A stretch of 64,000 nt of DNA. Origin: Phycisphaerae bacterium (GTDB lineage: Bacteria; Planctomycetota; Phycisphaerae; SM23-33). Below, one piece after another: positions 6,418 through 64,000 of this stretch; the first letter of the stretch is position 1; the number at the start of each line of letters is the position of its first letter. Location: positions 1 through 64,000 of the forward strand of contig DRGC01000055.1 of the NCBI GenBank assembly GCA_011050235.1. The letters run 5' to 3'. The notes beneath the pieces were generated by a model. It was not told the origin of the DNA. It saw nothing but the letters and a program-made list of their open reading frames with translations, and searched no databases. The position numbers and the translations under genes were made by a program.

Positions 6418-6433
6418 TCACATTTGACGGCTA

Positions 6434-6646
6434 GCCTTTCCCTTCAGCGCGATCGAGGGCACAGCCGCCCACGCCTGGCGCGATCGGCGCCCGCCCGACG
6501 CCACCGCCCGCCAAGCCATGACCGACCGCTACCTGACAATCTTCTTCTCCCCCCCGCCAGCCGCCCTAACCGGCCAACTCGCCACATTCCAAATCGACAT
6601 CCTCTGCAACCAAGGCCTCACCGGAGGCCCGATCGCATATCCCTGA
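6434..6646 (+). pseudogene. Decayed second copy of the mtaB C-terminus
   Basis: The reading frame from about 6434 to the TGA at 6644-6646 encodes the MtaB C-terminal region without a start codon; an in-frame TGA lies at 6425-6427. It has lost 40 codons and 3 codons relative to 4512-4853, both multiples of three, so the frame is intact. DNA similarity continues to about 6680, past the stop. It begins 17 bases after the protease stop codon. It is probably not translated. Confidence 0.8.
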
Positions 6647-6680
6647 ACACCTCCCCTTACCCCGTCGCGGCCGTTCCATT

Positions 6681-7044
6681 CGCGCTGGCGCGGGCGGCAT
6701 TGGAGGCGAGCCAAGCGCCGTGATCTGACGCCAAATGGCCATATCTCAGGAAAGCCGGGGATGGAACGGACAAGGTCAATTCGCACTGCGACAATGCCCT
6801 TCCGGACGGTGCCTTTTCTGCCGTTCTGGAGCGACGAAATCCGTTGGCGGACTCATCCTCCGAGCCCGAAGTGAGAAAACTTGGGATTTTGGTAGGCGCA
6901 AGCGGGGGGGGGGGGCAGTAGAATCCAGATGAGGGCGGCTGGCAGCGGGGCCCGGCAAGGTCATCCGGGAAATTTCGACTCAGAAATGATGTGGCCCCCC
7001 CGATCATGGCCACGAAGCACGGACTCTAAGAGATTGAAAGGAAA
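6681..7044. other. Non-coding gap with a 12-G homopolymer
   Basis: No credible gene is seen between the mtaB relic and the radical SAM gene. The notable element is an uninterrupted run of twelve G at 6904-6915, about 130 bases upstream of the next start codon. Confidence 0.6.
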
Positions 7045-8883
7045 ATGGTCAGGGCTTCACCTGGCCGGGTGACGCGTATGAAACTGGCTCTTATTTCGCC
7101 TCCAGAGACTCCTCCGTTTGGTCCGCCAATGTCGATCATAGCGCTCAAGTCGTACGCGCAGGAGCGCGACGTTACGGTCGTCCCGATAGACGCCAATATC
7201 GATGCGATTCACTACACCCTCAGTCCGGAAAAGCGGCTGCAGTTTGGCGAGTTCGCCTTAGCGTCGCTGACGAACGGATTGACGGGTCGAGGAGAGCCCA
7301 AGATCACAGCAAGACGTACTATCGTTCCCGGTGAGCCCCCCCCCCGGCTCGATTCGGCGCGCGCTCAAGTCGTCCTGGACCAGCTCGAGAGCATCTGGCG
7401 GGAGGACGGTTTCGCAATGACCAAAGACGGCTTCAAGTCCGAGTTGGCCATCTTGAACGATGCTCTCATTATGGCTTCACTTCGCATGTACCCCCACAAC
7501 ATCACGGTGTGGGGAGGAGTCCCTGCCTCGACGGACCTCTTTCGCAGCCAAAGGTACAATCCCTATCTCCAGTACTATCAGGAGGATCTTGTCCCTTCTC
7601 TGATAGAGCTTTCACCGGACCTCATCGGGATATCCTTTAGCTACATGGACCAGTTCTTCTACGTCGTGTCCCTGGTCAGGACGCTCAGAGCCGCTGGTCT
7701 CACTACGCCGGTCGTTATCGGTGGATCGGGTTTCACCACGATATGCAAGGCGGCCGGTTCGGACGTGGAGCCGACAATTCCCGTCGACAGTGGGTACCGA
7801 ATCATCGCCGTCAGCAGCATGCTGGGCACGTTGGACCCGCTTGCCGGCGGGAAGATGAGCTCCTCCGAGGTCATCACCGTAGGCGTCCAAGGCGAAGGCG
7901 AGGGCCCCCTTGGGGAGATATGCCGCCGTCTGGCACAAGGGGAGCCCTTTCTTGACGTGCCGAGCCTCGTCTATATCGATCCAGACAAGCGTGCGGTGAT
8001 CTTCAACGATAGGTGTGCGGCTCTTCCCGGCGATGAAATACCCAAGATGGATCTTGCTGGTCTGGGCATCGGCAAGAAGTACCTCTCGCCTATTCCCATG
8101 GCGCCGATCATAGCGTCTCGCGGGTGCTACTGGAACAAGTGCACGTTCTGCAACCTTCCCCACACACTCGACAGCCGATATCGCGTGCTGCCGATAGACA
8201 CTGTCCTGGCGACGGCGGAATCCTACGTCAATGAGTTCGGCGTCGAATTGGCGTTCTTCTGCGACGAGATGATGGGCCCGCCAAGACTGCGCGACTTGAC
8301 CGACAGGTTGGCGCAGAAGGACCTCTCCCTGCCCTTCTTCACAATGCTCCATATCGAAAAGGGTCATTTGCCTGTCATCGGATCTGCCGCCAAGGGAGGC
8401 CTGAAGTTCGTAGCCTTCGGCCTGGAGTCCGCCTGCGAGCGGGTCGCCGCCATGATGAACAAGGGGTACAAGCTGGATGTTGCCAAGGAACTGCTTGACG
8501 AATGTGTCCGCCATGGCGTGCGCGTGCAATACTTCGTCATGTTCGGCTTTCCGACCGAGACGCCCGCCGAAGCCGACGAGACGCTGGAGTATCTGGCCAG
8601 CAACCATGACAAGCTGTGGTGCATCAGGGCCACACCATGGTTACTGACGCCAAGCAGCCACATTCACTCGCATCCGGAGGAGTTCGGCATGGTTGCCAGT
8701 CCTGGCAAGACCATTACCCCGGACGATTCGACCAGCTACACAATGACCAAAGGGATCGATTACCGACAGGCTAAAGAGTACGTCCAACAGCTCCGGAGGG
8801 ACCCCGACCTGAGGCGCATCGTCCTGACCAACGGACAAGAGGACTACAGAGCCATCCTCGACATGCTCGAGAGCAGCCCGTAG
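7045..8883 (+). CDS. B12-binding-type radical SAM protein, substrate unknown
   Basis: The 612-residue protein opens with MKLALISPPETPP (from the internal ATG at 7078), typical of an N-terminal cobalamin-binding-like Rossmann domain. The segment LIGISFSYMDQF near 190 and GVQGEGEGPLGEI near 280 fit that domain. The radical SAM cluster motif is GCYWNKCTFC (about 355-364), the CX4CX2C variant seen in some B12 radical SAM enzymes. It is followed by FFCDEMMGPP and FGLESACERV, matching strand motifs of the barrel. The ATG at 7045 has a GAAAGGAAA ribosome site 4 nt away; 7078 is the alternative. Codon use is unlike the housekeeping neighbours. A ten-C tract lies in the coding region at 7336-7345. Nothing nearby suggests a substrate. 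Confidence 0.85.
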   Translation: MVRASPGRVTRMKLALISPPETPPFGPPMSIIALKSYAQERDVTVVPIDANIDAIHYTLSPEKRLQFGEFALASLTNGLTGRGEPKITARRTIVPGEPPPRLDSARAQVVLDQLESIWREDGFAMTKDGFKSELAILNDALIMASLRMYPHNITVWGGVPASTDLFRSQRYNPYLQYYQEDLVPSLIELSPDLIGISFSYMDQFFYVVSLVRTLRAAGLTTPVVIGGSGFTTICKAAGSDVEPTIPVDSGYRIIAVSSMLGTLDPLAGGKMSSSEVITVGVQGEGEGPLGEICRRLAQGEPFLDVPSLVYIDPDKRAVIFNDRCAALPGDEIPKMDLAGLGIGKKYLSPIPMAPIIASRGCYWNKCTFCNLPHTLDSRYRVLPIDTVLATAESYVNEFGVELAFFCDEMMGPPRLRDLTDRLAQKDLSLPFFTMLHIEKGHLPVIGSAAKGGLKFVAFGLESACERVAAMMNKGYKLDVAKELLDECVRHGVRVQYFVMFGFPTETPAEADETLEYLASNHDKLWCIRATPWLLTPSSHIHSHPEEFGMVASPGKTITPDDSTSYTMTKGIDYRQAKEYVQQLRRDPDLRRIVLTNGQEDYRAILDMLESSP

Positions 8884-8982
8884 AGCGTACAAGCAGGGCG
8901 AATCGAGAACTAATCGGGATCACGTGGGAAGCCGGGGCCGGGCGCTTGTTCGGGTTGGCTGGGGGGCGTACAATCGCGCGGG

Positions 8983-9789
8983 ATGAGTGAGACGGCTGAC
9001 AATGTGCGGGATGAGCTGACGCGGGCGGCGGGACAACTGCTGGCGATTGAGGAGTTCTTGGGCGGGCCGTTCGTTCCTGCTCGGGCGGTGGAGTTGCCGG
9101 AGGTCGGCCCTGCTGCGGCTACGGGAGGCGGGGCTGCCGGCGGCGGCGCGGTTGTGCGGGCGGCTGTCGGCAACGGCATGTCCGCGCAGGAAAAGGCCGA
9201 CGCGCTGGCGGAGATGGACGCCAACGAAGTGACCGGCTGCACCAAGTGCGCGCTGTGCCAAAACCGCACGAACACCGTCTTTGGCGAAGGCGATGCCGAC
9301 GCCGATCTGGTGTTTGTGGGCGAAGGCCCCGGGGCCGATGAGGATGCCACCGGCCGGCCGTTCGTGGGCCGGGCCGGCGAGCTGCTCGCCAAGATGATCA
9401 CAGCCATGGGGCTCTCACGCGAGCGGGTGTTCATCTGCAACATGGTCAAGTGTCGCCCGCCCGGCAACCGCGCCCCGATGCCCGAGGAGGTCTCGGCCTG
9501 CTGGGGCTACCTGGTGCGACAACTGCAGATCATCCAGCCGCGGGTGATCGTCACGCTCGGCAACCCGTCGACGCGGGGGCTGCTCGATACGCGGGTGGGG
9601 ATCACGAAGCTGCGGGGCCGCTTCCAGCAGTTGCCCGACATCGGCGAGGGCCTGGCCGGCACGCCCGTGATGCCGACATTCCACCCGGCCTACCTGCTGC
9701 GACAATACACGCCCGACAACCGCCGAAACGTCTGGGCCGACCTCCAACAGGTGATGAAACTGCTCGGGCTCGACGCTCCGTCGAGTTAG
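8983..9789 (+). CDS. udg: Family 4 uracil-DNA glycosylase (4Fe-4S)
   Basis: This enzyme removes uracil from DNA for base-excision repair. The 268-residue protein has an Ala/Gly-rich N-terminal extension (about 1-75), then the family 4 core. Visible are cluster cysteines in TGCTKCALCQNR, motif 1 GEGPGADEDATGRPFVG (about 112-128), further cysteines in CNMVKCRPPGNRAP, and motif 2 FHPAYLLR (about 230). The order and residues fit family 4 rather than Ung. It stands alone between the radical SAM gene and the transhydrogenase operon. GC content and codon use return here to the window norm. Confidence 0.93.
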   Translation: MSETADNVRDELTRAAGQLLAIEEFLGGPFVPARAVELPEVGPAAATGGGAAGGGAVVRAAVGNGMSAQEKADALAEMDANEVTGCTKCALCQNRTNTVFGEGDADADLVFVGEGPGADEDATGRPFVGRAGELLAKMITAMGLSRERVFICNMVKCRPPGNRAPMPEEVSACWGYLVRQLQIIQPRVIVTLGNPSTRGLLDTRVGITKLRGRFQQLPDIGEGLAGTPVMPTFHPAYLLRQYTPDNRRNVWADLQQVMKLLGLDAPSS

Positions 9790-9916
9790 AGCGTGTTGCG
9801 TTAGCCCCTATCACCGGCAGGCGGGGCTTTTGCCTTGTCCGATTGCGCGCTCGTGGTTAGATTAGCCGCTCCGCGGCGGCCATCGGGGCCTTGCGGGCTA
9901 TGGGAGTGACGCAGCG

Positions 9917-11071
9917 ATGAAGATCGGTGTTCTGCGAGAGATCGCGGCGGGCGAGACCCGCGTGGCCATCGTCCCCGAAACGGTCCGCTGCCTGGTGCGC
10001 GACGAGCACGAGGTGCTTGTCGAGGCCGGGGCGGGGGCGGGGGCGTTCTTCGACGACGAGGCCTACCAATCCGCCGGCGCGACGGTCTGCGCCGACGCGG
10101 GCGAGCTTTGCCGCCAGGCGGAATTGATCGTGAAGATCAACCCCCCCGCCGACGCGACGGGCGAGCGAGACGAGTTGGCGATGCTTCATTCGGGCGCCGC
10201 GCTGGTGTCGCTGTTGCATCCGGCGACCGGCGGGCCGCTGGCCGAGGCGCTGGCGCGGCAAGGCGTGACGAGCTTCGCGATGGACGCGATGCCCCGCATC
10301 ACGCGTGCCCAGTCGATGGATGTGCTTTCCAGCATGGCGACGGTGGCCGGCTACAAGGCCGTGCTGCTGGCGGCCGCCGCCCTGGGACGGATGATGCCGA
10401 TGCTGATGACGGCGGCAGGCACGATCAAGCCCGCAGCCGCGCTGGTAATCGGCGCGGGCGTGGCCGGCCTGCAGGCGGTCGCAACGGCCAAGCGTCTGGG
10501 TGCTCGCGTGGCGGCCGTCGACACGCGGCCGGCCGTGGCCGAGCAAGTCGAAAGTCTCGGCGCGAGTTTCATCTCGCTGGAGACCACCCACGACGCCCAG
10601 GATACCGGCGGCTACGCGACCGATCTGGGCGAATCGTTCTACAAGCAGGAGCAGGACATCCTCGCCCCGCACGTGGCCAAGGCGGACCTGATTATCTGCA
10701 CGGCCCTGATCCCAGGCCGACCGGCGCCGATCCTGATCACCGACGCGATGGTCGAGTCGATGCGAGGCGGGTCGGTCATCGTGGACCTGGCCGCGACGGC
10801 CGGCGGCAACTGCACGCTGTCGCAGCCCGACCAGACGGTCACGCATGGCGGCGTGACGATCCTGGGGCCCACCAACCTGCCCGCCCAGGCGCCGATCAAT
10901 GCATCGGAGATGTTCTCGCGGAACGTGGCGTCGTTCCTGGGCGAACTGCTGGTCGAGGGGCAACTGAACGTCGATCTGGAAAACGAAATCATCACCGCCA
11001 CACTGGTGACCCACGACGGAAAAGTCGTACACCCGGCGGCGTTGAAGGCCTTGGGCCGGAGTGAGGAATAG
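9917..11071 (+). CDS. pntAA: NAD(P) transhydrogenase subunit alpha part 1 (NAD(H)-binding)
   Basis: This is the soluble NAD(H)-binding domain I of proton-translocating transhydrogenase, which couples the proton gradient to NADPH formation. The 384 residues are full length for the split form. The N-terminus KIGVLREIAAGETRVA is the alanine dehydrogenase/PNT signature, and the dinucleotide fold shows GAGVAGLQAVATAKRLGA near 180. The RQD-type loop region is present at about 120-140. The stop is followed after 3 bases by the start of the membrane subunit, so the three pnt genes form one operon. Confidence 0.95.
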   Translation: MKIGVLREIAAGETRVAIVPETVRCLVRDEHEVLVEAGAGAGAFFDDEAYQSAGATVCADAGELCRQAELIVKINPPADATGERDELAMLHSGAALVSLLHPATGGPLAEALARQGVTSFAMDAMPRITRAQSMDVLSSMATVAGYKAVLLAAAALGRMMPMLMTAAGTIKPAAALVIGAGVAGLQAVATAKRLGARVAAVDTRPAVAEQVESLGASFISLETTHDAQDTGGYATDLGESFYKQEQDILAPHVAKADLIICTALIPGRPAPILITDAMVESMRGGSVIVDLAATAGGNCTLSQPDQTVTHGGVTILGPTNLPAQAPINASEMFSRNVASFLGELLVEGQLNVDLENEIITATLVTHDGKVVHPAALKALGRSEE

Positions 11072-51938: not shown

Positions 51939-54227
51939 CTAGGCGCGCTGCTGGATTGAGTCGAGGTAGCCCACGGCGCCGGGGCTTAGTTCGGCGGCAT
52001 TGGCTTCGTCGGTGTCGATGTGCATGTCCAGGCGATAGTCCGGATCGACGCGAACCATGACGTCACCGAAGATCAGCGACCGCTCGCCCGGCACGCGAAT
52101 GCGCACAATGTCGTGGTCGCGCAGGGCGAACTCCATCGCATCCTGCGGTGACATGTGGATGTGTCGCATCGCGCAGATCACACCGCACTCGAGCGTCACC
52201 TGGCCGGCCGGGCCGATCAGCGTGAGCCCGGGCGTGCCTTCCAGATCGCCCGACAGGCGAATGGGCGCATCGATGCCCAGCTTGAACTCCTCCGTGCGCG
52301 AGATCTCGACCTGGGTCTGCGGACGGGCCGGGCCAAGAACGCGCGCGCGCTCGATGGCGCCCTTGGGGCCCTGCAGCGTGACCGTCTCCCCGCAGGCGAA
52401 CTGCCCGGGTTGGCTCAGGTCGGCGTGCCAAGTCAACTCGTGGCCGGGTCCGAACAGCGCCTCCACGTGCTCATCGGTCAGGTGGAGGTGATGGGCCGAC
52501 GGGCTGATGGGGATCGGCTCGTGGTGGAGGCGCATGATGTCGGTGACGCGCCGGTTGGCCAGGGCCTGGACGGTCTGGCGGGCGATCGTGTGTTCCTCAT
52601 TGCTGCCGACGGCGAACACGCGTGTGAGGCCTGGGCCCGCGGAGATCTCGGCCACCTCGCCGGCCGCCACGTGGGTGGTGCGGTTGTGGGCCTCATCCAG
52701 TCGAACGCCCATGCTGTCGAGGCCCTGGCAGATTCGGGCCCGCACGCCGGTGGCGTTCTCGCCAACGCCGCCGGTGAAGATAACGATATCGGCGCCGCCC
52801 AGCAGGCCGACGTAAGAGGCCAGGTACTTCCGCGCGCGGCGGCAGTAGATCTCGATGGCCAACAGCGCCCGCGCGTGGCCGGCCTCGGCGGCCTGCATCA
52901 CCGTCAGCACGTCGCCGGAAACGCCCGACAGGCCCAGCAGGCCCGCCTCGGTGTACAGGCGGTGGGTCAGCTCGTTGGCGTCCAGCCCTCGCCGGCCGAT
53001 CAGGTGCAGCACGAGCCCCGGATCCAGGTCGCCCGGGCGGGTGGACATCACCAGCCCTTCCAGCGACGTCAGGCCCATGCTGCTATCGACGCAGCGGCCG
53101 CGGTCGATGGCAGCCAGCGACGCCCCCGTGCCCAGATGGCAGACGACGATCTTCAACGCCTCGAAGTTGACGCCCAGAAACTCGCATGCCGCCCGCGCGG
53201 CGCCCTCGTGCGAGATCCCGTGCGAGCCGAACCGCCTCAACCGTCCGCCGTCGGTCAGGTCATCGGGCAGGGCGTACTGATACGCCGCGGGCGGCATCTT
53301 CAGATGAAAGGCGGTATCGAACACCGCCACCTGCGGCACGTCGCCGGCCAGCGACCGGCAGATCTCGATGCCGCGAAGGTTGTAGGGATTCTCCAGCGGG
53401 GCCAGGTCCGCCAGGCGGGCGATCTCGTCGGTGACCTCATCGTCAGCCAGCGCCGGCCCGTTGAAGCGCCCGCCGCCGTGGCAGACGCGGTGCCCGATGG
53501 CCGACAACTCCGACACATCCGACAGCACGCCCCCCTCTGTGGCCGTCAGCGTCGCCAGCATCGCCTTCAGGGCCGCCTCGTGCGTGGCCGGATCGATGGG
53601 CTGTTCGCCCGCCCCGGCCGGGCCCCAATAGGCATGAACCGCCTGCGGCCCGCCCAGACCGTCGACACTCCCGCCGGCCAGGGCGCCTTCGGAGGCGGTG
53701 TCGAAGTACCGGTAGCGCATATCGCCCTGGCGGCAGCTGACCGACAGAATCCGCATGGGCTCATAGGCGCCCAGGCTAAATCGCACGGCGGTCGGCCTGG
53801 GGGCGGCCATCCGCCCGGCCGGCGGCGCCAGGCGCGCCGTCATCAGCCGAACCAGGAACCGCGCCGCATCGATGTTGGCTGCGATCAGCGGGGCGATCGC
53901 CTCATGCAGGAAGACCACGGCCTGGGAGGGCTCGACGGCCACCACGTCGGCGCTGGAGGGGTTGCCCGTCAGCAGCGACATCTCCCCGAAACACTCCCCC
54001 GGCTCGATCGTGCCCAGCCGCTGGCGCTGCGGGGTGTCATGGCCCTGGACGGCCTCGAGACGGCCGGCCAGCAGCACGCCGAGCACTTCGCCCGCCTCGC
54101 CGCAGCGGATGCAGACCTCGCCGGGCTCGTAGGAAACAGCCACGCCAACACGGATGGCCTCGGCCATGGCCTCGGGCGAAAAGGTCGCGAAGAGCGGGTG
54201 CGATTGCAGTTGGCCTGCGATATCCAT
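51939..54227 (-). CDS. Cyclic-nucleotide-binding domain - acetate kinase - PduL fusion
   Basis: This 762-residue protein fuses three modules. Residues 1-130 are a CNBD (RLEAVQGHD... GECFGEMSLLTGNPSSADVVA). Residues about 158-565 are acetate kinase: GHRVCHGGG, FDTAFH, CHLGTGAS, STRPGDLDPG and FTGGVGENA are present. The AckA N-terminal Asn-x-Gly-Ser-Ser-Ser motif is replaced by SVSCRQGD, so the Mg-binding Asn is gone. Residues about 570-760 are PduL: zinc pairs HLHLT and MRHIHMS. Together acyl-CoA to acyl phosphate to acid plus ATP on one chain, possibly controlled by cNMP. The ATG at 54227 is chosen at the CNBD start; no ribosome site is evident. Confidence 0.85.
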   Translation of the reverse strand: MDIAGQLQSHPLFATFSPEAMAEAIRVGVAVSYEPGEVCIRCGEAGEVLGVLLAGRLEAVQGHDTPQRQRLGTIEPGECFGEMSLLTGNPSSADVVAVEPSQAVVFLHEAIAPLIAANIDAARFLVRLMTARLAPPAGRMAAPRPTAVRFSLGAYEPMRILSVSCRQGDMRYRYFDTASEGALAGGSVDGLGGPQAVHAYWGPAGAGEQPIDPATHEAALKAMLATLTATEGGVLSDVSELSAIGHRVCHGGGRFNGPALADDEVTDEIARLADLAPLENPYNLRGIEICRSLAGDVPQVAVFDTAFHLKMPPAAYQYALPDDLTDGGRLRRFGSHGISHEGAARAACEFLGVNFEALKIVVCHLGTGASLAAIDRGRCVDSSMGLTSLEGLVMSTRPGDLDPGLVLHLIGRRGLDANELTHRLYTEAGLLGLSGVSGDVLTVMQAAEAGHARALLAIEIYCRRARKYLASYVGLLGGADIVIFTGGVGENATGVRARICQGLDSMGVRLDEAHNRTTHVAAGEVAEISAGPGLTRVFAVGSNEEHTIARQTVQALANRRVTDIMRLHHEPIPISPSAHHLHLTDEHVEALFGPGHELTWHADLSQPGQFACGETVTLQGPKGAIERARVLGPARPQTQVEISRTEEFKLGIDAPIRLSGDLEGTPGLTLIGPAGQVTLECGVICAMRHIHMSPQDAMEFALRDHDIVRIRVPGERSLIFGDVMVRVDPDYRLDMHIDTDEANAAELSPGAVGYLDSIQQRA

Positions 54228-54466
54228 TCGATAATCCCACAGCTGGCGGCGGTTTTGCGCGGGTATGCTACCAGACCCCGCCTCCCGTGTCTGCACACGG
54301 CCGAGACTGCAGTGACCATTCGACAGCTAGGGGGTTGCATTAACGGCCACGACATGGGAGGATAACAAGATATTATCGAAAGCCCGACCGTTTGGAGGGC
54401 TGTGCAGACAACCCGGTGGAAGTCATCATAACGTTCGGCCGGGGGTGATGCACTGCTGCAATAGTG

Positions 54467-56764
54467 ATGAAACAAAATACACAAGCCAATCCACTCGACG
54501 GCCTGTCCAAGGATCTGATCGAACACCTCCACCAGACGCAGCGCCATGCTGACGTGGTGGCCGCCGTGCCGTATGACCTCGACGAGCACGGGAAGTACAC
54601 CGAAGGGTACCTGCTGCTGACCGACAGCCGGCTTGGCCACTTCCGCCATCGCGACGGCCAATGGATGCATGAATGGCTCGAGGTAGGCGAGCTGGACGAG
54701 GCGACCCTGGTCGAAGGGCTGGGGATGAACCTGCTGCAGTTGATGGCCGACGGACGGCTGGTGGCCGAGTACCGCTTCACGCTACAGCACAGCCGCGAGT
54801 TGGGGCGATTCCATCGCCATCTGGAGGGGCTGGTCCACGGTGAAAGCCACCAGGAGCAAGACGAAGGCCGCCCGCGACACGGCGACGAGCAGCGCGGGCG
54901 CTGCCCCAAGTGCGACCGCCCGATCCCCTCATGGTCGGAAGTCTGCCGGGCCTGCATGAGTCGCCGGAAGATCCTCTGGCGCCTGCTGGACTTCGTCATC
55001 CCCTACAAGGACCGGGCCATCGCCTCGTTCCTCCTGGCCCTGACGATGACGGGGCTGGCGCTACTCACTCCGCTGCTGTCGCGATGGTTAATTGACGACG
55101 GCCTTGGCGCCGGACCGGGCAAACAAGCGAACTGGGCCATCGTCCTCATGTCGGTGGGCGGCATGCTGGGTCTGCTGATGTTTCGGGCCATTGGCCAGTG
55201 GGGACAATCGCGTCTGTCCGGCGAGGTCGCCCGACGCGTTGCTCGGGCCATTCGTCATGCCGTCTATGCCCACATGCACCGGCTGAGCTTGGATTTCTTC
55301 GCCAAGCGCCAGACCGGCGCCCTGGTCACGCGCGTCACCAACGACACCGAACGCCTGTGGAGCTTCACCGCATCCATTGCCATCGAAATGGTCCTGGCCA
55401 TCCTGACCATCGTCGGCGTGGGCGTGGCCCTGTTCCTGATGAACTGGAAGCTGGCCATGTTCGCCCTGATGCCGGTGCCGTTGATGATCTTCCTGACGGC
55501 CTTCTTCCACAAGCGCCTCCACCGCAGCTTCCGGCAGCAGTGGCACCGCTGGAGCCAGATGACGGCCGTCGTGGCCGACGCCCTGCCCGGCATGCGGGTC
55601 ATCAAGGCCTTCAGCCAGGAACAACGCGAGGTCGACCGGTTCGAGGAAAGATCCACCGCCCTGTTTGATGAAGAGCGGAACTATATCCGCGGCGCCAAGT
55701 CGCTGTTTGCCCCGACCATGATGTTCGCCACCTCGCTGAGTACGCTGATTATCTACCTTGTAGCCGGCTGGACGATCTGCAGCGAATGGTCAATGGTCCA
55801 AGCCGAGCCGAAAACGGCCACCATGACCTTTGGAACGATGATGGCCTTTCTGTTCTACATGAACATGTTCCTTCGTCCCGTGCACCAGTTGGCGCACATG
55901 GACGAACAGCTCAACCGCGCCGCCACCAGCGCCCAACGAATCTTCGAAATCCTCGATACCGAGCCCCGCATCTACACCAAGGCCGACGCCCACACCCCCG
56001 ACACCATCGAAGGCCGCATCGAGCTTCGCAACGTCAGCTTCAGCTACGACGGCGTCAACAAGGTGCTCAAGAACATCAACCTGACGATTGAGCCGGGCGA
56101 GATGATCGGCCTGGTCGGGCCGTCAGGCGCCGGCAAGACCACCATGGTCAACCTGATCTGCCGCTTCTACGACGTGATCGAAGGGCAAATCCTGATCGAT
56201 GGCGTCGACATCCGCGACTACGACATCGGCGAGCTGCGACGCAAGATCGGCATGGTCCTGCAGGAGCCCTTCCTGTTCCACGGGCCAATTGGGGAGAACA
56301 TCGCCTACGGCATGCCCGAGGCGTCGTCAGAGGAAATCATCACCGCCGCTCGGGCCGCCAACGCCAACAACTTCATCATCAACTTCCCCGACGGGTACGA
56401 CACCATGGTCGGTGAACGCGGGCAGACCCTCTCCGGCGGCGAACGCCAGCGGATCAGCATCAGCCGGGCTATCCTCCATAACCCCTCCCTGCTGATCCTG
56501 GACGAGGCCACCAGCTCCGTCGACACCGAGACCGAAGAAACGATCCAGAAAGCTCTGGACGGCCTGACGGCCAGCCGGACCACCATCGCCATCGCCCACC
56601 GCTTGTCGACCTTACGAAAAGCCGACCGGTTGGTCGTCATCGATAAGGGCTTGATGGTCGAACAAGGCTCACACGACGAACTGGCCAGGAAGGACGGCGG
56701 CCTATACGCCCGGCTGCTTCAAAAGCAGCAGGAAATGCAGTCCTACATCGCCCTGCAGACCTGA
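54467..56764 (+). CDS. ABC transporter permease-ATPase (cyanophycin metabolism-associated type)
   Basis: The 765-residue half-transporter has an N-terminal domain (about 1-140), a zinc ribbon CPKCDRPIPSWSEVCRAC, six membrane helices and an ATPase. ATPase motifs are GPSGAGKTT, LQEPFLF, LSGGERQR, LLILDEATSSVD and AHRLS. The architecture, together with a downstream DUF1854 gene, matches the pair annotated elsewhere as cyanophycin metabolism-associated. No cyanophycin synthetase or cyanophycinase is in this window, so the transported compound is unknown. The ATG at 54467 is adjacent to an in-frame GTG. Confidence 0.88.
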   Translation: MKQNTQANPLDGLSKDLIEHLHQTQRHADVVAAVPYDLDEHGKYTEGYLLLTDSRLGHFRHRDGQWMHEWLEVGELDEATLVEGLGMNLLQLMADGRLVAEYRFTLQHSRELGRFHRHLEGLVHGESHQEQDEGRPRHGDEQRGRCPKCDRPIPSWSEVCRACMSRRKILWRLLDFVIPYKDRAIASFLLALTMTGLALLTPLLSRWLIDDGLGAGPGKQANWAIVLMSVGGMLGLLMFRAIGQWGQSRLSGEVARRVARAIRHAVYAHMHRLSLDFFAKRQTGALVTRVTNDTERLWSFTASIAIEMVLAILTIVGVGVALFLMNWKLAMFALMPVPLMIFLTAFFHKRLHRSFRQQWHRWSQMTAVVADALPGMRVIKAFSQEQREVDRFEERSTALFDEERNYIRGAKSLFAPTMMFATSLSTLIIYLVAGWTICSEWSMVQAEPKTATMTFGTMMAFLFYMNMFLRPVHQLAHMDEQLNRAATSAQRIFEILDTEPRIYTKADAHTPDTIEGRIELRNVSFSYDGVNKVLKNINLTIEPGEMIGLVGPSGAGKTTMVNLICRFYDVIEGQILIDGVDIRDYDIGELRRKIGMVLQEPFLFHGPIGENIAYGMPEASSEEIITAARAANANNFIINFPDGYDTMVGERGQTLSGGERQRISISRAILHNPSLLILDEATSSVDTETEETIQKALDGLTASRTTIAIAHRLSTLRKADRLVVIDKGLMVEQGSHDELARKDGGLYARLLQKQQEMQSYIALQT

Positions 56765-57303
56765 TGCCCGAGCCAATACCTATGTGCAACGCCGACAATA
56801 CCCACCGAAACGCCGCCGAAGTGGCCCTGGACGCTTTGCGTGTCCGCAAACTTGAGCGCAACAGCAAGGGCCAACTCGTCGCCTACCTCGAGGGCTGCGA
56901 CGAGCCCCTCACCGACGTCCGCGTCCGACGCTACTTCCCCTGGTCGCAGCCGGAGCACTACTTCGCGATCTGCGACGCCGACGGCAAAGAACTCGCGATG
57001 CTCCACACGCTCCACGAACTCGACCCCGGAAGCCGCGAACTCGCCGAGGCCGAACTCGCCGACAAGGTCTTCAACCCCAAGATCACGCGCGTGCTCAGCC
57101 ACAAGCGTGAGTTCGGCATCACCACCGTCACGGCCGAGACCGACCGCGGACAGGTGACCTTCGATTTCAACAGTCGTGAGGATGTGCGAATCCTCTCGCC
57201 CACGCGCGGCCTGTTCCGCGATGTCGACGGCAACACGTTCGAAGTCGCCGATATCAGCAAACTGGACCCGGTAACCCAACGATACCTGCAGCGGTACTTC
57301 TGA
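56764..57303 (+). CDS. DUF1854 family protein
   Basis: The 179-residue protein has DUF1854 features: DVRVRRYFPWSQPEHYFAICD, ELAMLHTLHELDPGSRELAE, TAETDRGQVTFDF and RDVDGNTFEV. Its ATG overlaps the transporter TGA (tgATG), so it is translationally coupled and probably works with the transporter. An alternative ATG is 18 bases downstream. Biochemical role unknown. Confidence 0.88.
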   Translation: MPEPIPMCNADNTHRNAAEVALDALRVRKLERNSKGQLVAYLEGCDEPLTDVRVRRYFPWSQPEHYFAICDADGKELAMLHTLHELDPGSRELAEAELADKVFNPKITRVLSHKREFGITTVTAETDRGQVTFDFNSREDVRILSPTRGLFRDVDGNTFEVADISKLDPVTQRYLQRYF

Positions 57304-57381: not shown

Positions 57382-59301
57382 ATGACCATGGCTCCTTCCG
57401 ACGCGCACCACGATCATGATTCGGACCATTCCCACGGGGCCGGCGCCGCTTTGAGCGACCGGGCCCGCGACATTCTGCGGCGCGGTATCGACGAATTGCT
57501 GCAGATGACCGAGGCCATGACCTTCCAGCCCGTGGCGTCCGAGAAGTTCCCCCTGCCGCTGACGTCCGTCGCCCACGCCCAGCTGCCGGGCCTGGATGCC
57601 CTGCGGGTCGAGATCGAGGCGCGGAAGGACTCGGACCCCATCCGCATCCTGGACGAGGTCCTGGCCCTGCTGGAACTTTACGAGTGCAATCAGCCCGACA
57701 TCGCCGAACATATTCTCCAGGACATGCCGTTCGTGGCGACGTGCTTCAACTCCAAGCGCCGCAATGGGTGGATCGCCGTCGTCGGAGACGGCGATCGCGC
57801 TGCGCTGGAATCGGCTGTCAACGACCGGTGGCTGTTCGAGTTTTTCTCCGGCCCGGCCCGGCCGACCGGCCTGTACGTGCTGCTGAGCATGCTGGCCCGA
57901 TACGCGTTCGTCTACGGGCCCGTGGCGCCTGGCGACAGCCACACGCTTTCGCACTTCGTCGAGGATCTGGCCCCCGGCGTGATCGTCTGTCATGGGGCGC
58001 TGAGCGACCTGGAATGGACGCTGGCCCTGGCGGCGATGAAGATGGGCGTCCCGGCCGTCGTGCCCGCCGACTACCCGTTCGGCCTGGGCCGCACGCTGCA
58101 AGCCGACACGCCCGACCAGGTCGCCGAGACCGTCGTAGGCCTGCCCAACATCCGGCGGCTCCTGCAGGTGCCCGACATTCCGCAACTGCCCCCCTACTGT
58201 AACGGGCAATTCGCCGGCCAGGAGATTACCCCGGCCGTCACCTGGGGCGGCACGAGCGAGAGCTTTTTCATCGTCCGAAAGGGATCGGTCAGCAAGCCCG
58301 GTTTCGCCGTCACCGCCAAGCCGACCGGGCCGATCGGCATTGTCGTGACGGCCGACGCCGAGCCTATGGATGCCGTCGACTGCGACTACATCGAGCAGGC
58401 TGTCCTGCCGACGCTGGCGATGATGGACGGCGTGGCCGTCGATGCCGACGACGACGGCCTGACGATCCACATGGGTGAGGGCATTCAACTGGATCCGAAG
58501 CGGATCGGCGAGGCGCTGCTGGCGGCGGTGGGCAACCAGTTTCCCAAGCTTCACGACCGCACCCGCGTGGAGGTGATCTTCGACGTCGCCACGCTCGGCG
58601 AGATCGCCCCCGACGTTCGGGCCGAGAAGCTCGCCCGCGCCGACCAGATCGCCCGCGCCACCGAGGAATCGGCCGAGCAGTTCATCGGCTGCACGGGGTG
58701 CTCGCCGTTCGCGCCGGACCACGTGTGCATCATCACGCCCGAGCGTCCCACGCAGTGCGGGCGGCCGATGGGGCTGCTCAAGACCAACGCCCAATACGCC
58801 TACGACGACATGAGCGGCATCCATCACAGCCGCCTGCAGAAGGACGTCAATTCCTTCATCGTGATCGACAAGGGCGAGTGTATCGACCCGGTGCGCGGCG
58901 AGTGGTCGGGCGTCAACGCCCACGCTCAGCGCATGACCGACGGCCGGACGCAGCGCGTCCAACTGCACTGCCTCGACGAGGTCCCCCACACCGGCTGCGG
59001 ATGCTTTCGGCTGATCCTGTTCAAGACCGCGGCGCCCCGCGAGGGCGTGGGTGTGATGGACCGCGGCTTCGGCGGCGCCTGCGCCGACGGGCGGGCGTGG
59101 GGTGACCTCTACTACGAATTGGCCGGCAAGCAAACCCCCGGCGTCACCGGGGCCGGACCGGGATATCTGCTGTCCGACAAGTTCCTCGCCGCCCACGGCG
59201 GCTGGGACAGCGTCGTATGGGTTAGCCCCCGCGTAGCCGAGTTCATGGGTGACCGTCTGCCCGATGGCGTGGACGTCGGCCGCGAGCCCGAAGCAGGCTA
59301 G
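57382..59301 (+). CDS. Acetyl-CoA synthase beta-type subunit (CdhC/AcsB-like)
   Basis: The 639-residue protein carries all six A-cluster cysteines with canonical spacing. Cys437, Cys440, Cys449 and Cys459 (C-x2-C-x8-C-x9-C, in GCTGCSPFAPDHVC then ITPERPTQC) and Cys539/Cys541 (HTGCGCF) are present. The C-terminal DRGFGGACADG and GGWDSVVWV match ACS. The N-terminus is His-rich (HHDHDSDHSHG), perhaps for nickel. This enzyme assembles acetyl-CoA from CO, a corrinoid methyl and CoA in the Wood-Ljungdahl pathway. No CODH or corrinoid Fe-S subunit lies beside it. It may be a stand-alone or relocated subunit. The ATG follows GGGAG. Confidence 0.88.
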   Translation: MTMAPSDAHHDHDSDHSHGAGAALSDRARDILRRGIDELLQMTEAMTFQPVASEKFPLPLTSVAHAQLPGLDALRVEIEARKDSDPIRILDEVLALLELYECNQPDIAEHILQDMPFVATCFNSKRRNGWIAVVGDGDRAALESAVNDRWLFEFFSGPARPTGLYVLLSMLARYAFVYGPVAPGDSHTLSHFVEDLAPGVIVCHGALSDLEWTLALAAMKMGVPAVVPADYPFGLGRTLQADTPDQVAETVVGLPNIRRLLQVPDIPQLPPYCNGQFAGQEITPAVTWGGTSESFFIVRKGSVSKPGFAVTAKPTGPIGIVVTADAEPMDAVDCDYIEQAVLPTLAMMDGVAVDADDDGLTIHMGEGIQLDPKRIGEALLAAVGNQFPKLHDRTRVEVIFDVATLGEIAPDVRAEKLARADQIARATEESAEQFIGCTGCSPFAPDHVCIITPERPTQCGRPMGLLKTNAQYAYDDMSGIHHSRLQKDVNSFIVIDKGECIDPVRGEWSGVNAHAQRMTDGRTQRVQLHCLDEVPHTGCGCFRLILFKTAAPREGVGVMDRGFGGACADGRAWGDLYYELAGKQTPGVTGAGPGYLLSDKFLAAHGGWDSVVWVSPRVAEFMGDRLPDGVDVGREPEAG

Positions 59302-59315
59302 CCCCCCATACCCGT

Positions 59316-60413
59316 TCAGATCGCCCGCAGGGCCTGGTCGAAGTCGGCGATCAGGTCCTCGGCGTCTTCCAGGCCGACCGATATGCGAGCGTACGAGCCC
59401 GCAATGGCCAGCGGATCCCACTTGCGCGTGATCGTCACCAGCGTATGCACGTCACCGAGGCTGGGGGCGTGTTTGGCCACGGTCAGCCGGTCGGCGAAGG
59501 CCTCGGTGGCGGCCTGGTCCGCGTCGATGCCGGCCCCCACCATCCCGCTAAAGCCCGAGAACTGCTTGGCCGCCAGCGCGTGCTCACTGTCGTCCGGCAG
59601 GCCGGGGTAATGAACGTAGGTGACCTTGGGATGGCCTTTGAGGAATGCGGCCAGCTTCGCCGCGTTGGCGGCGTGGACTTCCATGCGAACGGGCAGCGTC
59701 TTGATTCCTCTCAGGATCAACGCCGCGTTGAACGGGCTCATCGACCCGCCGTGAAGCGTCATCAGGTCCCACAGTGTCTTGGCGAACCGCTCGTCCCTGC
59801 AGATCGTCGCTCCGCCGATCGCATCGCCGTGGCCGCAGAGGTATTTGGTGGCGCTGTGGATCACGACATCGGCGCCATGCTCCAAAGGCCGGCAGAAATA
59901 GGGCGTGGCGAACGTGCTGTCGATCACCAGCGACGCGCCGGCGGCGTGGGCCCGCTCGGCGACAGCGGCGATGTCGATCACGTCCATGTTCGGATTGCTG
60001 ATCGTTTCGCCGTAGACGACGGCGGCCGGGGCCTTGAGCGCTTCATCGAGCGCCGCCAGGTCGCGGAGGTCGACCACGTCGGTCGTCACGCCGAACCGCT
60101 CGAAGACCTTCTCCAGCAGCGCCAGCGTGGAGGCGTAGATCGTGCGGTGGCGGATCACCCGCCCGCCGGTGTGCAGCAGCGTCATCAGCGTCTGCGAGAT
60201 GGCCGCCATCCCGCTGGCCGACAGCACGGTCATCGCGCCACCCTCCAGTTCGGTCAGGGCGTTGGCCAGCACATCCATGGTGGGGTTGCGGTCGCGGGTG
60301 TACTCGCCTTCGTTGACGGCGCCCATGTAAATCGGCACGGCCGAGAAGCCTGGGATGTTGGCCAGGTGAGTGGCCCTGGTGGCGAAGCTGCGGGGTGTGT
60401 CCTGCGACGTCAT
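59316..60413 (-). CDS. Cys/Met metabolism PLP enzyme (cystathionine gamma-synthase / methionine gamma-lyase type)
   Basis: The 365-residue fold-type I PLP enzyme has the Lys motif SATKYLCGHGDAIGG. SASGMAAISQTLM, ETISNPNMDVIDI and the start FATRATHL... also fit the family. It cannot be assigned to synthase, lyase or O-acetylhomoserine sulfhydrylase. GAGGA lies 7 nt before the ATG. It is the last gene of a minus-strand run with the MttB-family gene upstream, 22 bases away. Confidence 0.88.
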   Translation of the reverse strand: MTSQDTPRSFATRATHLANIPGFSAVPIYMGAVNEGEYTRDRNPTMDVLANALTELEGGAMTVLSASGMAAISQTLMTLLHTGGRVIRHRTIYASTLALLEKVFERFGVTTDVVDLRDLAALDEALKAPAAVVYGETISNPNMDVIDIAAVAERAHAAGASLVIDSTFATPYFCRPLEHGADVVIHSATKYLCGHGDAIGGATICRDERFAKTLWDLMTLHGGSMSPFNAALILRGIKTLPVRMEVHAANAAKLAAFLKGHPKVTYVHYPGLPDDSEHALAAKQFSGFSGMVGAGIDADQAATEAFADRLTVAKHAPSLGDVHTLVTITRKWDPLAIAGSYARISVGLEDAEDLIADFDQALRAI

Positions 60414-60434
60414 GGGTGTGTCCTCGGGTCGGCT

Positions 60435-61973
60435 CTAGGCGAAATCCTGCACGTAGAAGCGCCACCAATCGTTCGCCTTGGCGCGCCAGCTTCGGTCGTC
60501 CTCAGCCAGGCGCTTCTCGACGGCGGCGAGTCGTTCGAGCGTCTCTGCGCCGGTCACACCATCGCTGCGACGGGCGAGAATATCTTTCACGCGCGTGTGC
60601 GCTTTATCGTACCAGTCCTCCTGCGACGCCGCCACGCGGCCGGTGAAGTCCGAGTAATAAATATCGCGCTTCATGTGCTTCAGCGTGTGCTCGTTGAAGG
60701 CGAAACTCCCACCCGACTGGGCGCTGCAGGCGGCGATCACCTCGACGGCCAGGCTGTCGGCGTCGGTGTGAATCTCGCCGTTGATATTCAGCAACTGCCC
60801 GGCGATCTCGTCGGTGACGATCAGGTGCTCGTAGCTGAGCATCAGTGTAGAGTCGAGGATGGCCGTCATGATGATATTGCCCCCGGCCGCCAGACCCAGC
60901 GCCAACCCCAGGGCCGTCTCCACCGCCGCCCGCGCGCCGGGCGCCTTGGCGCTGGGGTTGCCCGGGCAGATGCGACTGGGCAGGCCGTAGCGGTCGGCGA
61001 TCTGAACCGCCGCGACGTTCAGCAGCCCCGTCTCGATGCTGCCGTGAGAGATGTCGGCAGTGCGAAGGTCGGTGGGCGCCCCAACAAAGCCGTACATGGT
61101 CGGCACGCCCGGCCGTGCGAGCTGGACCATCGTCACGGCCGCCAGCACCTCGGCGTTGTGTTGGGTCAGCGCCCCGGCCAGCGTCACCGGGCAACTGGTG
61201 CCCATCATCACCTCAGGGCTAATGATCACCAGCGTGCACTTGCGGGCCGGATCGAGAAGCTCCAGAACAATCGGCGCCTGCTCGGCGTGCCACTGCAACG
61301 GGCTGAGCGGGTTGAACCAGATGTATTGCTCCCACAGGCTCATTCGCTGCTCGAGCGTGGCCGCCCCATCGCGGATCGCCAGCGCCAGCGTCGCCAGCGC
61401 CACCTCCTGCGAAGAATAGTTGCGAACGTTCAGCCCCAACGGCCGCTCGATGCCTTGCCGTCCCGCCAGCCACCGCCGCAGGAACTCCCCGCGCGCGTCG
61501 GCGCTGTCGAAGGTGATCTGCTTGCGCCGGCCCGCGCTGGTCCGCTCGGAATGAAACACCAAATCGCACGGGTCGGCCACGAGGTTCTTGAGATGGGCGG
61601 CGATCAGTGAGAACTCGTCCGAATCGGCCTCCACGCAATGGCGCGGCGCGCCGGCCTGGTGGTCGTAGATCGTGTAGGCGTTGCCGTTGATGGTGATATT
61701 GCTGGCGCCCTTGGCCAGGCTGAATTGCTCGCCGTAGCCCAGCGACGGATCGCCGAAGGTCAGCGTATCGCGATCGGGTAGGCGTTGCAGACAGTCTTCG
61801 ACCAACTCAGCCGGAAACCGAATGCGTCCGCCCTCAGCCCGACACCCGTTGGCGACAAGAAACTCCTCCACCTGCGGGGCCTTGTGAAACAACACGCCCA
61901 CGTCGGCCAGCACGGTCAGCGAGGCCTGATGAATCCGCTCGATGTCCTCCGCCCGAAGCGCCTGAATGTGCAT
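60435..61973 (-). CDS. Trimethylamine methyltransferase (MttB) family protein, non-pyrrolysine type
   Basis: The 512-residue protein matches MttB-family proteins: SLTVLADVGVLFH at the start, RPLGLNVRNYSSQE, SPEVMMGTSCPVTLAGALTQHNAEVLAAV, and GLALGLAAGGNIIMTA. The frame has no internal amber codon, so no pyrrolysine; such proteins demethylate betaines or are uncharacterised. Its partner corrinoid protein is not in view. It lies between a gamma-lyase-type gene and the FucI-like gene in the same orientation. Confidence 0.85.
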   Translation of the reverse strand: MHIQALRAEDIERIHQASLTVLADVGVLFHKAPQVEEFLVANGCRAEGGRIRFPAELVEDCLQRLPDRDTLTFGDPSLGYGEQFSLAKGASNITINGNAYTIYDHQAGAPRHCVEADSDEFSLIAAHLKNLVADPCDLVFHSERTSAGRRKQITFDSADARGEFLRRWLAGRQGIERPLGLNVRNYSSQEVALATLALAIRDGAATLEQRMSLWEQYIWFNPLSPLQWHAEQAPIVLELLDPARKCTLVIISPEVMMGTSCPVTLAGALTQHNAEVLAAVTMVQLARPGVPTMYGFVGAPTDLRTADISHGSIETGLLNVAAVQIADRYGLPSRICPGNPSAKAPGARAAVETALGLALGLAAGGNIIMTAILDSTLMLSYEHLIVTDEIAGQLLNINGEIHTDADSLAVEVIAACSAQSGGSFAFNEHTLKHMKRDIYYSDFTGRVAASQEDWYDKAHTRVKDILARRSDGVTGAETLERLAAVEKRLAEDDRSWRAKANDWWRFYVQDFA

Positions 61974-62008
61974 TCGTTAATTCCCTAAGCTGTCCGCCGG
62001 CAGACGGG

Positions 62009-63331
62009 TTACAACTCGACCAGCCGAAGCGCATCGCCGGCCAGGCTCGCCCACCAGCGGAGTTCATCGCCCACACACCCATAGCCCGCCATCCAGTGAT
62101 GGCCGATGCCTTCGTCGTGAATCCAATCGATCACCTGGACCGTCGGCTGGCGGAACTGCACGCGCAGCGGGTTGCCGGGGAAGACCATCTCCGTCGACAG
62201 CGCCTGGCCCTCCAGCAGCGCCAACTGGTAGCCGCCCTCGCGCGGGATCAGGTTGATCAGCGTCACCGGCCCGGGCCTGGCCGGGAACAGCGCGCAGACG
62301 CCCTGGCCCATCAGCCGCACCGAATCGAGTGTGATGTCCTCGGCCCGCTCGGCCAGTTGAAACGAGCCCGACCCGCAGTGCGTGAAGACCACCGTCCCGT
62401 CGTCCAGCGGTTCGAGCCAATCGGTGTTGTGCGTCGGCTCGCCCGTCAGCCGCGTCAGCATCAGTTGCCCGACCGCGCCGTTGACGTCGCCCTCGCAGCC
62501 CAGCGGGATGCCCTCACCGGCCAGCAGGCTCGACGCCAGGCACACCCGCCCCATCAGGTGCGGATAGCAGCCGATCGTCAGCGCCGCCAATCCATGTTGC
62601 TCGACCAATTCCCGCACGGCGAGGTAGACCTTCATCGAATCGATGCCCGTGGCGTCGTCGACTTTGCACGCCGCAGCGCGCCCCGTCACATCGGCCCAGG
62701 CAGCCCGGGCGGGGGCGTCGTCGATCTGGCCCGCGCGGTCCAGCAGGTGCGGAAGATCAAGCGGCACGACGCGGGGCCCGACGGAGTTTTTCAGCGCGAA
62801 CTCGCTGACGGCGACCTCGGTCATGCCCGCGACACGATGGCCCGCGATGCCGACCCGCGCTCGCCGCAACTGAAGCTTCAGGGCCGTCGCCCGCAAAAAC
62901 GCCATTGCCCGATCCAGCTCGCCGCCGGCCGCCAGCGGCGCGAACACGCACGCAACCGGATGGCCCAACTGCTTGAGATAGCTCGTCAACTGCTGCGAGC
63001 CGCACAGCGCACCCGTCTCCATCCCCGGAAGCGACCAGAGCAACACCGGCGCCGAGCAGTACTCCAGCAGATCCAGCGCCAGGTAGTCTTCGTACCAACT
63101 GACCGCCGCGAAGGCCACGGCGTCGACGTGCGACTCGGCCAGCTTCCGTCCGGCCGCGACGGCATGGTCCGGGTCGCCGATGGGTCCCAGTTCGACGACC
63201 TCGCAGCCGGCCGACACCAGCAGCGCAGCCAGGTCGGCGGCCGCCGCCGGGGCGCGATCGGCGCCGATCTCCAACGGGCTGGACAGCGCGGCGACCCCGA
63301 CTCTCGGAATGAATGATCGTGCTGGATTCAT
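62009..63331 (-). CDS. L-fucose/L-arabinose isomerase-like protein
   Basis: The 440-residue protein has the isomerase fold of the FucI/AraA superfamily: IGCYPHLMGRVCLASSLLAGEGIPLGCEGDVNGAVGQ, FTHCGSGSFQLAE, and FPGNPLRVQF. Glu and His ligands in CEGDVNG and THCGSGS fit metal binding. The start at 63331 (MNPARSF) is preferred over an upstream frame that reads through repeat DNA. It follows the MttB-family gene in orientation. Substrate unknown. Confidence 0.8.
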   Translation of the reverse strand: MNPARSFIPRVGVAALSSPLEIGADRAPAAAADLAALLVSAGCEVVELGPIGDPDHAVAAGRKLAESHVDAVAFAAVSWYEDYLALDLLEYCSAPVLLWSLPGMETGALCGSQQLTSYLKQLGHPVACVFAPLAAGGELDRAMAFLRATALKLQLRRARVGIAGHRVAGMTEVAVSEFALKNSVGPRVVPLDLPHLLDRAGQIDDAPARAAWADVTGRAAACKVDDATGIDSMKVYLAVRELVEQHGLAALTIGCYPHLMGRVCLASSLLAGEGIPLGCEGDVNGAVGQLMLTRLTGEPTHNTDWLEPLDDGTVVFTHCGSGSFQLAERAEDITLDSVRLMGQGVCALFPARPGPVTLINLIPREGGYQLALLEGQALSTEMVFPGNPLRVQFRQPTVQVIDWIHDEGIGHHWMAGYGCVGDELRWWASLAGDALRLVEL

Positions 63332-63381
63332 GTTTCCGGACCTCTCAAGTGCATCTTCACGGGTTCGACTCAAAGCTGAGG

Positions 63382-63470
63382 AATGACCAATGACCAAATC
63401 CCAATGACCAAACACCCCCAGATCGCGCCGCCATCGGACATTGGACATTGGTCATTGGACATTGGTCATT
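63382..63470. repeat. Inverted low-complexity repeat (tgaccaa / ttggtca units)
   Basis: aatgaccaatgaccaa (63382-63397) and its inverted copy with one mismatch (63455-63470), with more tggacattgg units between, form a large imperfect palindrome. It is a dispersed intergenic element, not coding. Confidence 0.7.
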
Positions 63471-63534
63471 TCCCTGCATGTCTGAAGCCCTTCTACTGCT
63501 CAGCAAGCTGTCCGATTGTCAAATGCCGTCCCTC

Positions 63535-64000
63535 TTACAACCCGCTCGCTTCGCGCCAGGCGTCGATCATGCATTCGACGCTGTCCCACGGCGTATCGGG
63601 GAAGACGGCATCCACCGCGTGCAGGATGAAGCGATTGGTCGGGGCGAGCGCATCGACCGCCTTGCGGACCTCATCGCGAATGCGCCCGGGGTCGCCGCTT
63701 TGCAGCGTCAGGGCATTCGTGCCGCCCACGACCGTAATGCGCTCGGCGAGTTTGGCGGCCGCTTCCAGCGAGACGTGGTCCTGCACGGGATCGATGAAGT
63801 ACAGCACGTCCACGCCCGCATCAGCCAGCCGCGGACCGAGCAGTTCCACACCGGTCGTCATCGCGTAAGCGAACAGCTTGCCGCTGCGATGGGCGATCTC
63901 GGTCAGCCTCTCCAGGTGCGGAAACACGTACTGATCGAACAGCCCCGGCGACCAGAAGTCGGTCGACGAATACCAGCCGCGCTGACAGACCATGTCCACC
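63535..64000 (-). CDS. Uroporphyrinogen decarboxylase-like protein (partial, start off right edge)
   Basis: The C-terminal 155 residues of a UroD-like protein are present: GWYSSTDFWSPGLFDQYVFPHLERLTEIAHRSG, YAMTTGVELL, DPVQDHVSL and VGGTNALTLQSG. The frame enters from beyond base 64000, so the N-terminus is unseen. It is the fifth UroD-like gene of the window and lies upstream of the FucI-like and MttB-family genes in the same direction. Confidence 0.8.
   Translation of the reverse strand, partial: VDMVCQRGWYSSTDFWSPGLFDQYVFPHLERLTEIAHRSGKLFAYAMTTGVELLGPRLADAGVDVLYFIDPVQDHVSLEAAAKLAERITVVGGTNALTLQSGDPGRIRDEVRKAVDALAPTNRFILHAVDAVFPDTPWDSVECMIDAWREASGL

Follow-up and report, generated by a model that had tools for sequence, protein, structure and literature searches.

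Which role is left to an acetyl-CoA synthase (ACS) homologue whose gene stands apart from its usual partner genes? The question was raised by one gene in the stretch of 64,000 nucleotides analysed here (the window), which corresponds to contig C55 in a genome of 4.0 Mb and 95% completeness. The first-pass annotation had described there an ACS homologue displaying all A-cluster ligands away from its habitual company, and this description held. The gene is real. Its open reading frame of 639 aa begins with ATG, preceded at a distance of about 8 bases by GGGAG as a plausible ribosome-binding stretch, and its composition was typical of coding DNA (GC3 of 0.88; codon usage r = 0.94 versus the genome's own AcsB).

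The sole Pfam match of the protein was PF19436, the C-terminal A-cluster domain of ACS (residues 419-627, 125 bits). The central CdhC domain PF03598 was missing among Pfam matches up to E = 1, and a profile search of the genome gave no match to it at the window locus. Scores against the curated AcsB models NF040764 (178.7 bits) and PRK09529 (176.9 bits) were below the cut-offs of 800 and 809, while the genome's own AcsB reached 979.8 and 960.2 bits; the CdhC model TIGR00316 gave 142 bits (cut-off 355.95). With the ACS-like relatives considered below, scores ranged from 142 to 229 bits versus cut-offs of 356-809. Identity to the genome's own AcsB was 36% over residues 373-627. A structure model derived from three close orthologs was too poor for fold searches (pLDDT 37, pTM 0.27). 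Features of the locus and of related loci are listed in the table.

Table. Positions of features in the window and, where a contig or genome is named, elsewhere.
Feature	Position	Strand	Basis and remarks
CNBD-AckA-PduL fusion	51939-54296	-	domain search; does not recur beside relatives
ABC transporter, cyanophycin-associated type	54464-56764	+	domain/NCBIfam search; does not recur beside relatives
DUF1854 protein directly upstream	56764-57303	+	domain search; does not recur beside relatives
ACS-like protein, divergent relative of AcsB/CdhC	57382-59301	+	ORF; PF19436; hhalign to AcsB E 2e-46; orthologs at 54-57% and a distant one at 31%
His-rich N-terminus, residues 1-21	57382-57444	+	alignment of four members
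Equivalent of AcsB gating/alcove segment, residues 126-135	57757-57786	+	R142, G145, I146, V149 correspond to R126, G129, W130, V133 (alignment)
Y178, equivalent of alcove Phe229 (Trp in G202)	57913-57915	+	alignment
H187-x3-H191-x2-E194	57940-57963	+	alignment
C273, Cys invariant in ACS-like proteins but not in AcsB	58198-58200	+	alignment
Site of AcsB-invariant G-x-W418-H-x-G-Q-R...W-x-R motif, residues 350-365	58429-58476	+	alignment
[4Fe-4S] ligands of the A-cluster, C437, C440, C449, C459 (CX2CX8CX9C)	58690-58758	+	alignment to Moorella ACS
Insertion of ~12 aa common to four ACS-like proteins, not in AcsB or CdhC	58810-58845	+	alignment
CGC motif for two nickel atoms, C539-G540-C541	58996-59004	+	alignment to Moorella ACS
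Cys/Met metabolism PLP enzyme (PF01053), convergent neighbour	59316-60413	-	domain search
MttB-superfamily methyltransferase	60435-61973	-	PF06253; TIGR02369 below cut-off
CooS	C2:31285-33138		profile search of genome
metY	G202 (L035) 5463-6713		overlapping operon
thiS-like	G202 (L035) 6710-6925		overlapping operon; short tail after GGG
thiF (ThiF/MoeB-like)	G202 (L035) 6912-7727		overlapping operon
JAMM	G202 (L035) 7721-8149		overlapping operon
ACS-like	G202 (L035) 8139-10073		last of five overlapping genes

Three relatives were found, 57%, 54% and 31% identical to the window protein and all from planctomycete MAGs. The first two are full-length orthologs (genomes G026 and G292, the latter being the same genome as G748 and that of the L024 record) detected with exact peptide patterns in 84,980 species genomes; the third, in genome G202, emerged from a profile search of a 397-genome sample of the class. 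Profile searches gave no further member in a phylum sample (392 genomes), in the orders of G202 (161 genomes) and G292 (114 genomes) or in the order to which the window belongs (38 genomes). Scans of viral contigs yielded no relatives, and plasmid records a canonical AcsB only. Within the genomes searched the family is rare.

Compared with AcsB (Moorella, Carboxydothermus), the ACS-like proteins were homologous over their full length (domains A1-A2-A3), although overall identity was only ~24-27% and their scores amounted to at most roughly a quarter of the curated one. Alignment of the four with ten AcsB by hhalign gave a probability of 100% and an E of 2e-46 over 583 columns. In the A-cluster domain they were 26-36% identical to AcsB and CdhC, whereas AcsB and CdhC share 44-48%. 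The archaeal CdhC (ACDS beta subunit, Methanosarcina, 9c0s) resembled the family in this domain (32-35% identical) and had the PHTxCGCF and GGW-VVW wording in common with the window protein. Domain A1, however, is absent from CdhC and present, by homology, in the ACS-like proteins, and in the A-cluster domain tree CdhC grouped with AcsB. This tree, a comparison already advised in the first-pass annotation, placed the four proteins in one clade (support 99/97) outside AcsB and Methanosarcina CdhC. Since branches within the clade were long (3.9 and 4.1), long-branch attraction is possible; the four share, however, a 12-aa insertion after the fourth cysteine that neither AcsB nor CdhC has, and this speaks for their common descent. 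Judged from sequence, they are a third, divergent lineage beside AcsB and CdhC, for which no paper was found in the literature searches made.

The six cysteines of the A-cluster (C437, C440, C449, C459, C539 and C541) displayed the spacing of Moorella ACS, CX2CX8CX9C...CGC, as had been annotated. Together with the glycine of CGC they were invariant in all four proteins, down to 31% identity. From 159 columns invariant in twelve AcsB, 44 were kept in all four ACS-like proteins while 102 positions were lost; if AcsB-invariant columns were retained at random, the chance of keeping all six cysteines would be ~3e-4. Conservation extended to the second shell around the active site (Pro535, Thr537, Phe542 and GxQxPG). 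A fast-evolving AcsB relic under weak constraint, with its cluster inactive or differently loaded, would account for the very long branches and the 102 lost positions. It would not be expected to leave all cluster ligands invariant or to hold a full-length frame at 54-57% identity across three genera, and is considered very unlikely.

The losses concerned other regions. In domain 2, the AcsB motif G-x-W418-H-x-G-Q-R...W-x-R, which together with Trp418 we take to be the CoA site, was replaced in the ACS-like proteins, its first glycine alone remaining. The C-terminal tail of AcsB and a portion of its N-terminal region were missing too. Because all cluster cysteines were kept while regions conserved elsewhere in the enzyme were lost, the protein probably carries out different nickel chemistry, perhaps in sulfur amino-acid metabolism.

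The CO alcove was partly kept. In Moorella ACS, alcove and gating residues are G145, I146, V149, F229 and F512 (PMC11321310), to which the gating residue R142 is added (PMC11474084). Equivalents of G145 and F512 (the latter F443 in the window protein) were encountered in all four ACS-like proteins and those of V149 and R142 in three of four, R142 being replaced by Trp in G202. F229, whose change to Trp raises the CO affinity of the Moorella enzyme 80-fold (PMC11321310), corresponded to Tyr, and to Trp in G202. I146 was replaced by Trp in all four, which may make the alcove narrower. The H187-x3-H191-x2-E194 motif was invariant in the four ACS-like proteins only and is a possible metal or acceptor site.

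The His-rich N-terminus already noticed in the first-pass annotation is real, conservation being limited to H-x-H-G-[AT]-G (residues 16-21) in three of the four members. It had been put forward as a possible nickel store, but the G202 member, the most distant one, does not have it. Such a start would suit a non-catalytic sensor or metal-handling protein, the cluster binding CO, Ni or a redox signal so that the protein regulates or stores. The gene also stands alone in three of four loci, and Rrf2-type regulators were found near the G202 member. Nevertheless, a domain search revealed neither a DNA-binding nor a signalling domain in the window protein, the start is lacking in G202, and the conserved second shell is what would be expected for catalysis. 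This role appears quite unlikely.

A search of the window's genome for CODH/ACS partner genes, as had been proposed, uncovered on contig C2 a canonical CODH/ACS/CFeSP cluster with no part missing: CooC, CooS, a ferredoxin-like protein, canonical AcsB, AcsC, a RACo-like activator, CooC and AcsD in this order. The designation 'orphan' is therefore appropriate locally but not for the genome: given this cluster, the window gene is a divergent second ACS homologue and not the organism's acetyl-CoA synthase. Genome G202 likewise carries a canonical cluster besides its ACS-like gene. In the MAG G026 (95% complete, 9% contamination) a CODH is encoded, and a genome search found no canonical, second ACS and no CdhD-family protein; in the MAG G292 (87% complete) it found no canonical ACS, CODH or CdhD. 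It had been suggested beforehand that a genome lacking CODH and the corrinoid Fe-S protein (CFeSP) would speak against a classical ACS. The window's genome has both, but in G292/G748 neither was found, an argument against a classical ACS function of the family.

Unlike in AcsB, no CODH or CFeSP gene was detected near the window gene, in line with the first-pass annotation; its statement that a methyltransferase was missing as well was not quite accurate. Downstream, a convergent block encodes a PF01053 PLP enzyme, an MttB-superfamily methyltransferase and a URO-D-like protein. The gene block at 59316-63999 (-) of the window and L008:3536-6162 comprises genes of the PF01053, MttB-superfamily, sulfoquinovose-isomerase-like, URO-D-like and DegT aminotransferase types, and no corrinoid protein was seen in it. 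The MttB block was absent beside the relatives, and the genes flanking the window gene did not match those at L023 or L024, nor did these two match each other.

These genes bear on whether the protein is a stand-alone working acetyl-CoA synthase/decarbonylase in which CODH and CFeSP are replaced by CO from solution and by a different corrinoid protein, such as one that the adjacent MttB-like methyltransferase would serve. Complete A-cluster ligands, a partly kept alcove, the MttB-like and URO-D-like genes downstream and the CODH elsewhere in G026 are all consistent with it. A CODH-less AcsB is moreover known in Dehalococcoides, where ACS supplies methyl groups for methionine (PMC7005905); its CFeSP (AcsCD) is kept, in contrast to two ACS-like genomes in which no CdhD-family protein was found. 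Such an activity is nonetheless unlikely, as neither PF03598 nor the domain-2 motif around Trp418-Arg429 was recognisable, the MttB block is not repeated beside relatives, a canonical ACS is already present in the window's genome, and the Trp at the I146 position may constrict the alcove in all four proteins.

On the other side of the gene, the CNBD-AckA-PduL protein and the ABC/DUF1854 pair had been imagined to belong with it to a branch that forms or uses acetate. The fusion is a 785-aa protein composed of a cyclic-nucleotide-binding domain, an acetate kinase and a PduL phosphotransacylase. Its gene is ~3 kb away, and conversion of acetyl-CoA into acetate by AckA-PduL is known chemistry. It lies, however, on the opposite strand with the ABC/DUF1854 pair in between, a canonical ACS exists elsewhere in the genome, and the domain-2 motif is lost. 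None of the AckA-PduL, ABC and DUF1854 genes recurs beside any of the three relatives; they were therefore discarded as partners, and the acetate branch has the slimmest prospects of the explanations considered.

A different context was displayed by the G202 locus. The first 11 bases of its ACS-like gene are also the last 11 of the JAMM gene, and metY, thiS-like, thiF and JAMM overlap in turn; a sulfite reductase-TusA fusion follows, then a PLP cysteine-synthase-type gene. The run of metY, thiS, thiF, JAMM and sulfite reductase, found together here, is the gene set of thiocarboxylate-dependent homocysteine synthesis, the reference for which is cited in PMC5764234. A protein-thiocarboxylate homocysteine pathway composed of HcyS/HcyF/HcyD/MetY/Sir was reportedly described from Wolinella by Krishnamoorthy and Begley in 2011. 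The G202 run resembles it in comprising MetY, a ThiS-like protein whose GGG is followed by a short tail, a ThiF/MoeB-like protein, JAMM and sulfite reductase. To our knowledge the Wolinella pathway has no ACS-like member, whereas in G202 the ACS-like gene is the next overlapping gene. As a separate observation, the G202 JAMM and ACS-like proteins (L035) end alike (LLEDGNVAKVSVKI and LLIEDGNVMDVSVEI), as though the ACS-like gene had received a copy of the JAMM gene's end at its own.

The sulfur link comes from this one locus, that of the 31% identical member. The homocysteine gene set was not encountered at the window locus, where only the convergent PF01053 gene adjoins the ACS-like gene, nor were homocysteine genes found alongside the G026 and G292 orthologs; small ThiS-like ORFs ending near GG were not convincing around the window gene or its close orthologs. 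The window's block of PF01053, MttB-like and URO-D-like genes is a weaker hint of the same link. The idea that the ACS-like gene substitutes for an absent methionine synthase lost ground: each of the four genomes encodes a separate homocysteine S-methyltransferase-domain protein, so that plain replacement of methionine synthase is not required.

The best reading is that the ACS-like protein was repurposed away from CODH and CFeSP, and probably from CoA. With somewhat less than even confidence, we regard the family as derived from ACS, keeping the A-cluster site, no longer acting as carbon-fixing acetyl-CoA synthase, and passing a nickel-bound methyl or acyl group to some sulfur acceptor that is not CoA. 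A Ni-Ni-[4Fe-4S] cluster would be formed, nickel binding being predicted from the ligands only. It would take up a methyl or acyl group, giving a methyl- or acyl-nickel intermediate, and the group would then pass to a thiol or sulfur acceptor, probably other than CoA. Sulfur amino-acid (homocysteine/methionine) or protein-thiocarboxylate metabolism is the candidate pathway, proposed because one member overlaps the end of the metY-thiS-thiF-JAMM operon. More doubtful is the specific version in which this A-cluster nickel enzyme would transfer methyl or acyl groups to homocysteine, sulfide or a protein thiocarboxylate without CODH, CFeSP and CoA, a reaction that would be new for nickel enzymes. 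If true, the A-cluster could work alone, without CODH, corrinoid protein or domain-2 motif, which would offer a handle on its other chemistry. There are not many nickel enzymes, and ACS is among those whose origin is often placed in the last common ancestor. For genome surveys, an ACS match does not always signal the Wood-Ljungdahl pathway.

Some further observations were made. In G026, the Ni-CODH (549 bits; L036:4239-6865) lies directly behind a ScdA/RIC-type protein, canonical ACS and CFeSP not being found in that genome. In the genome to which the window belongs, three genes in a row (PF01053, ThiF and LarE-like, the last assigned by eye; L006:26-3167) lie about 13 kb from the canonical ACS cluster. 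Six genomes of the class (L014, L042, L070, L071, L072 and L073) displayed AcsB-AcsD fusion ORFs of ~1170-1190 aa, where a domain resembling the CFeSP small subunit comes after a full AcsB, AcsD being assigned by eye.
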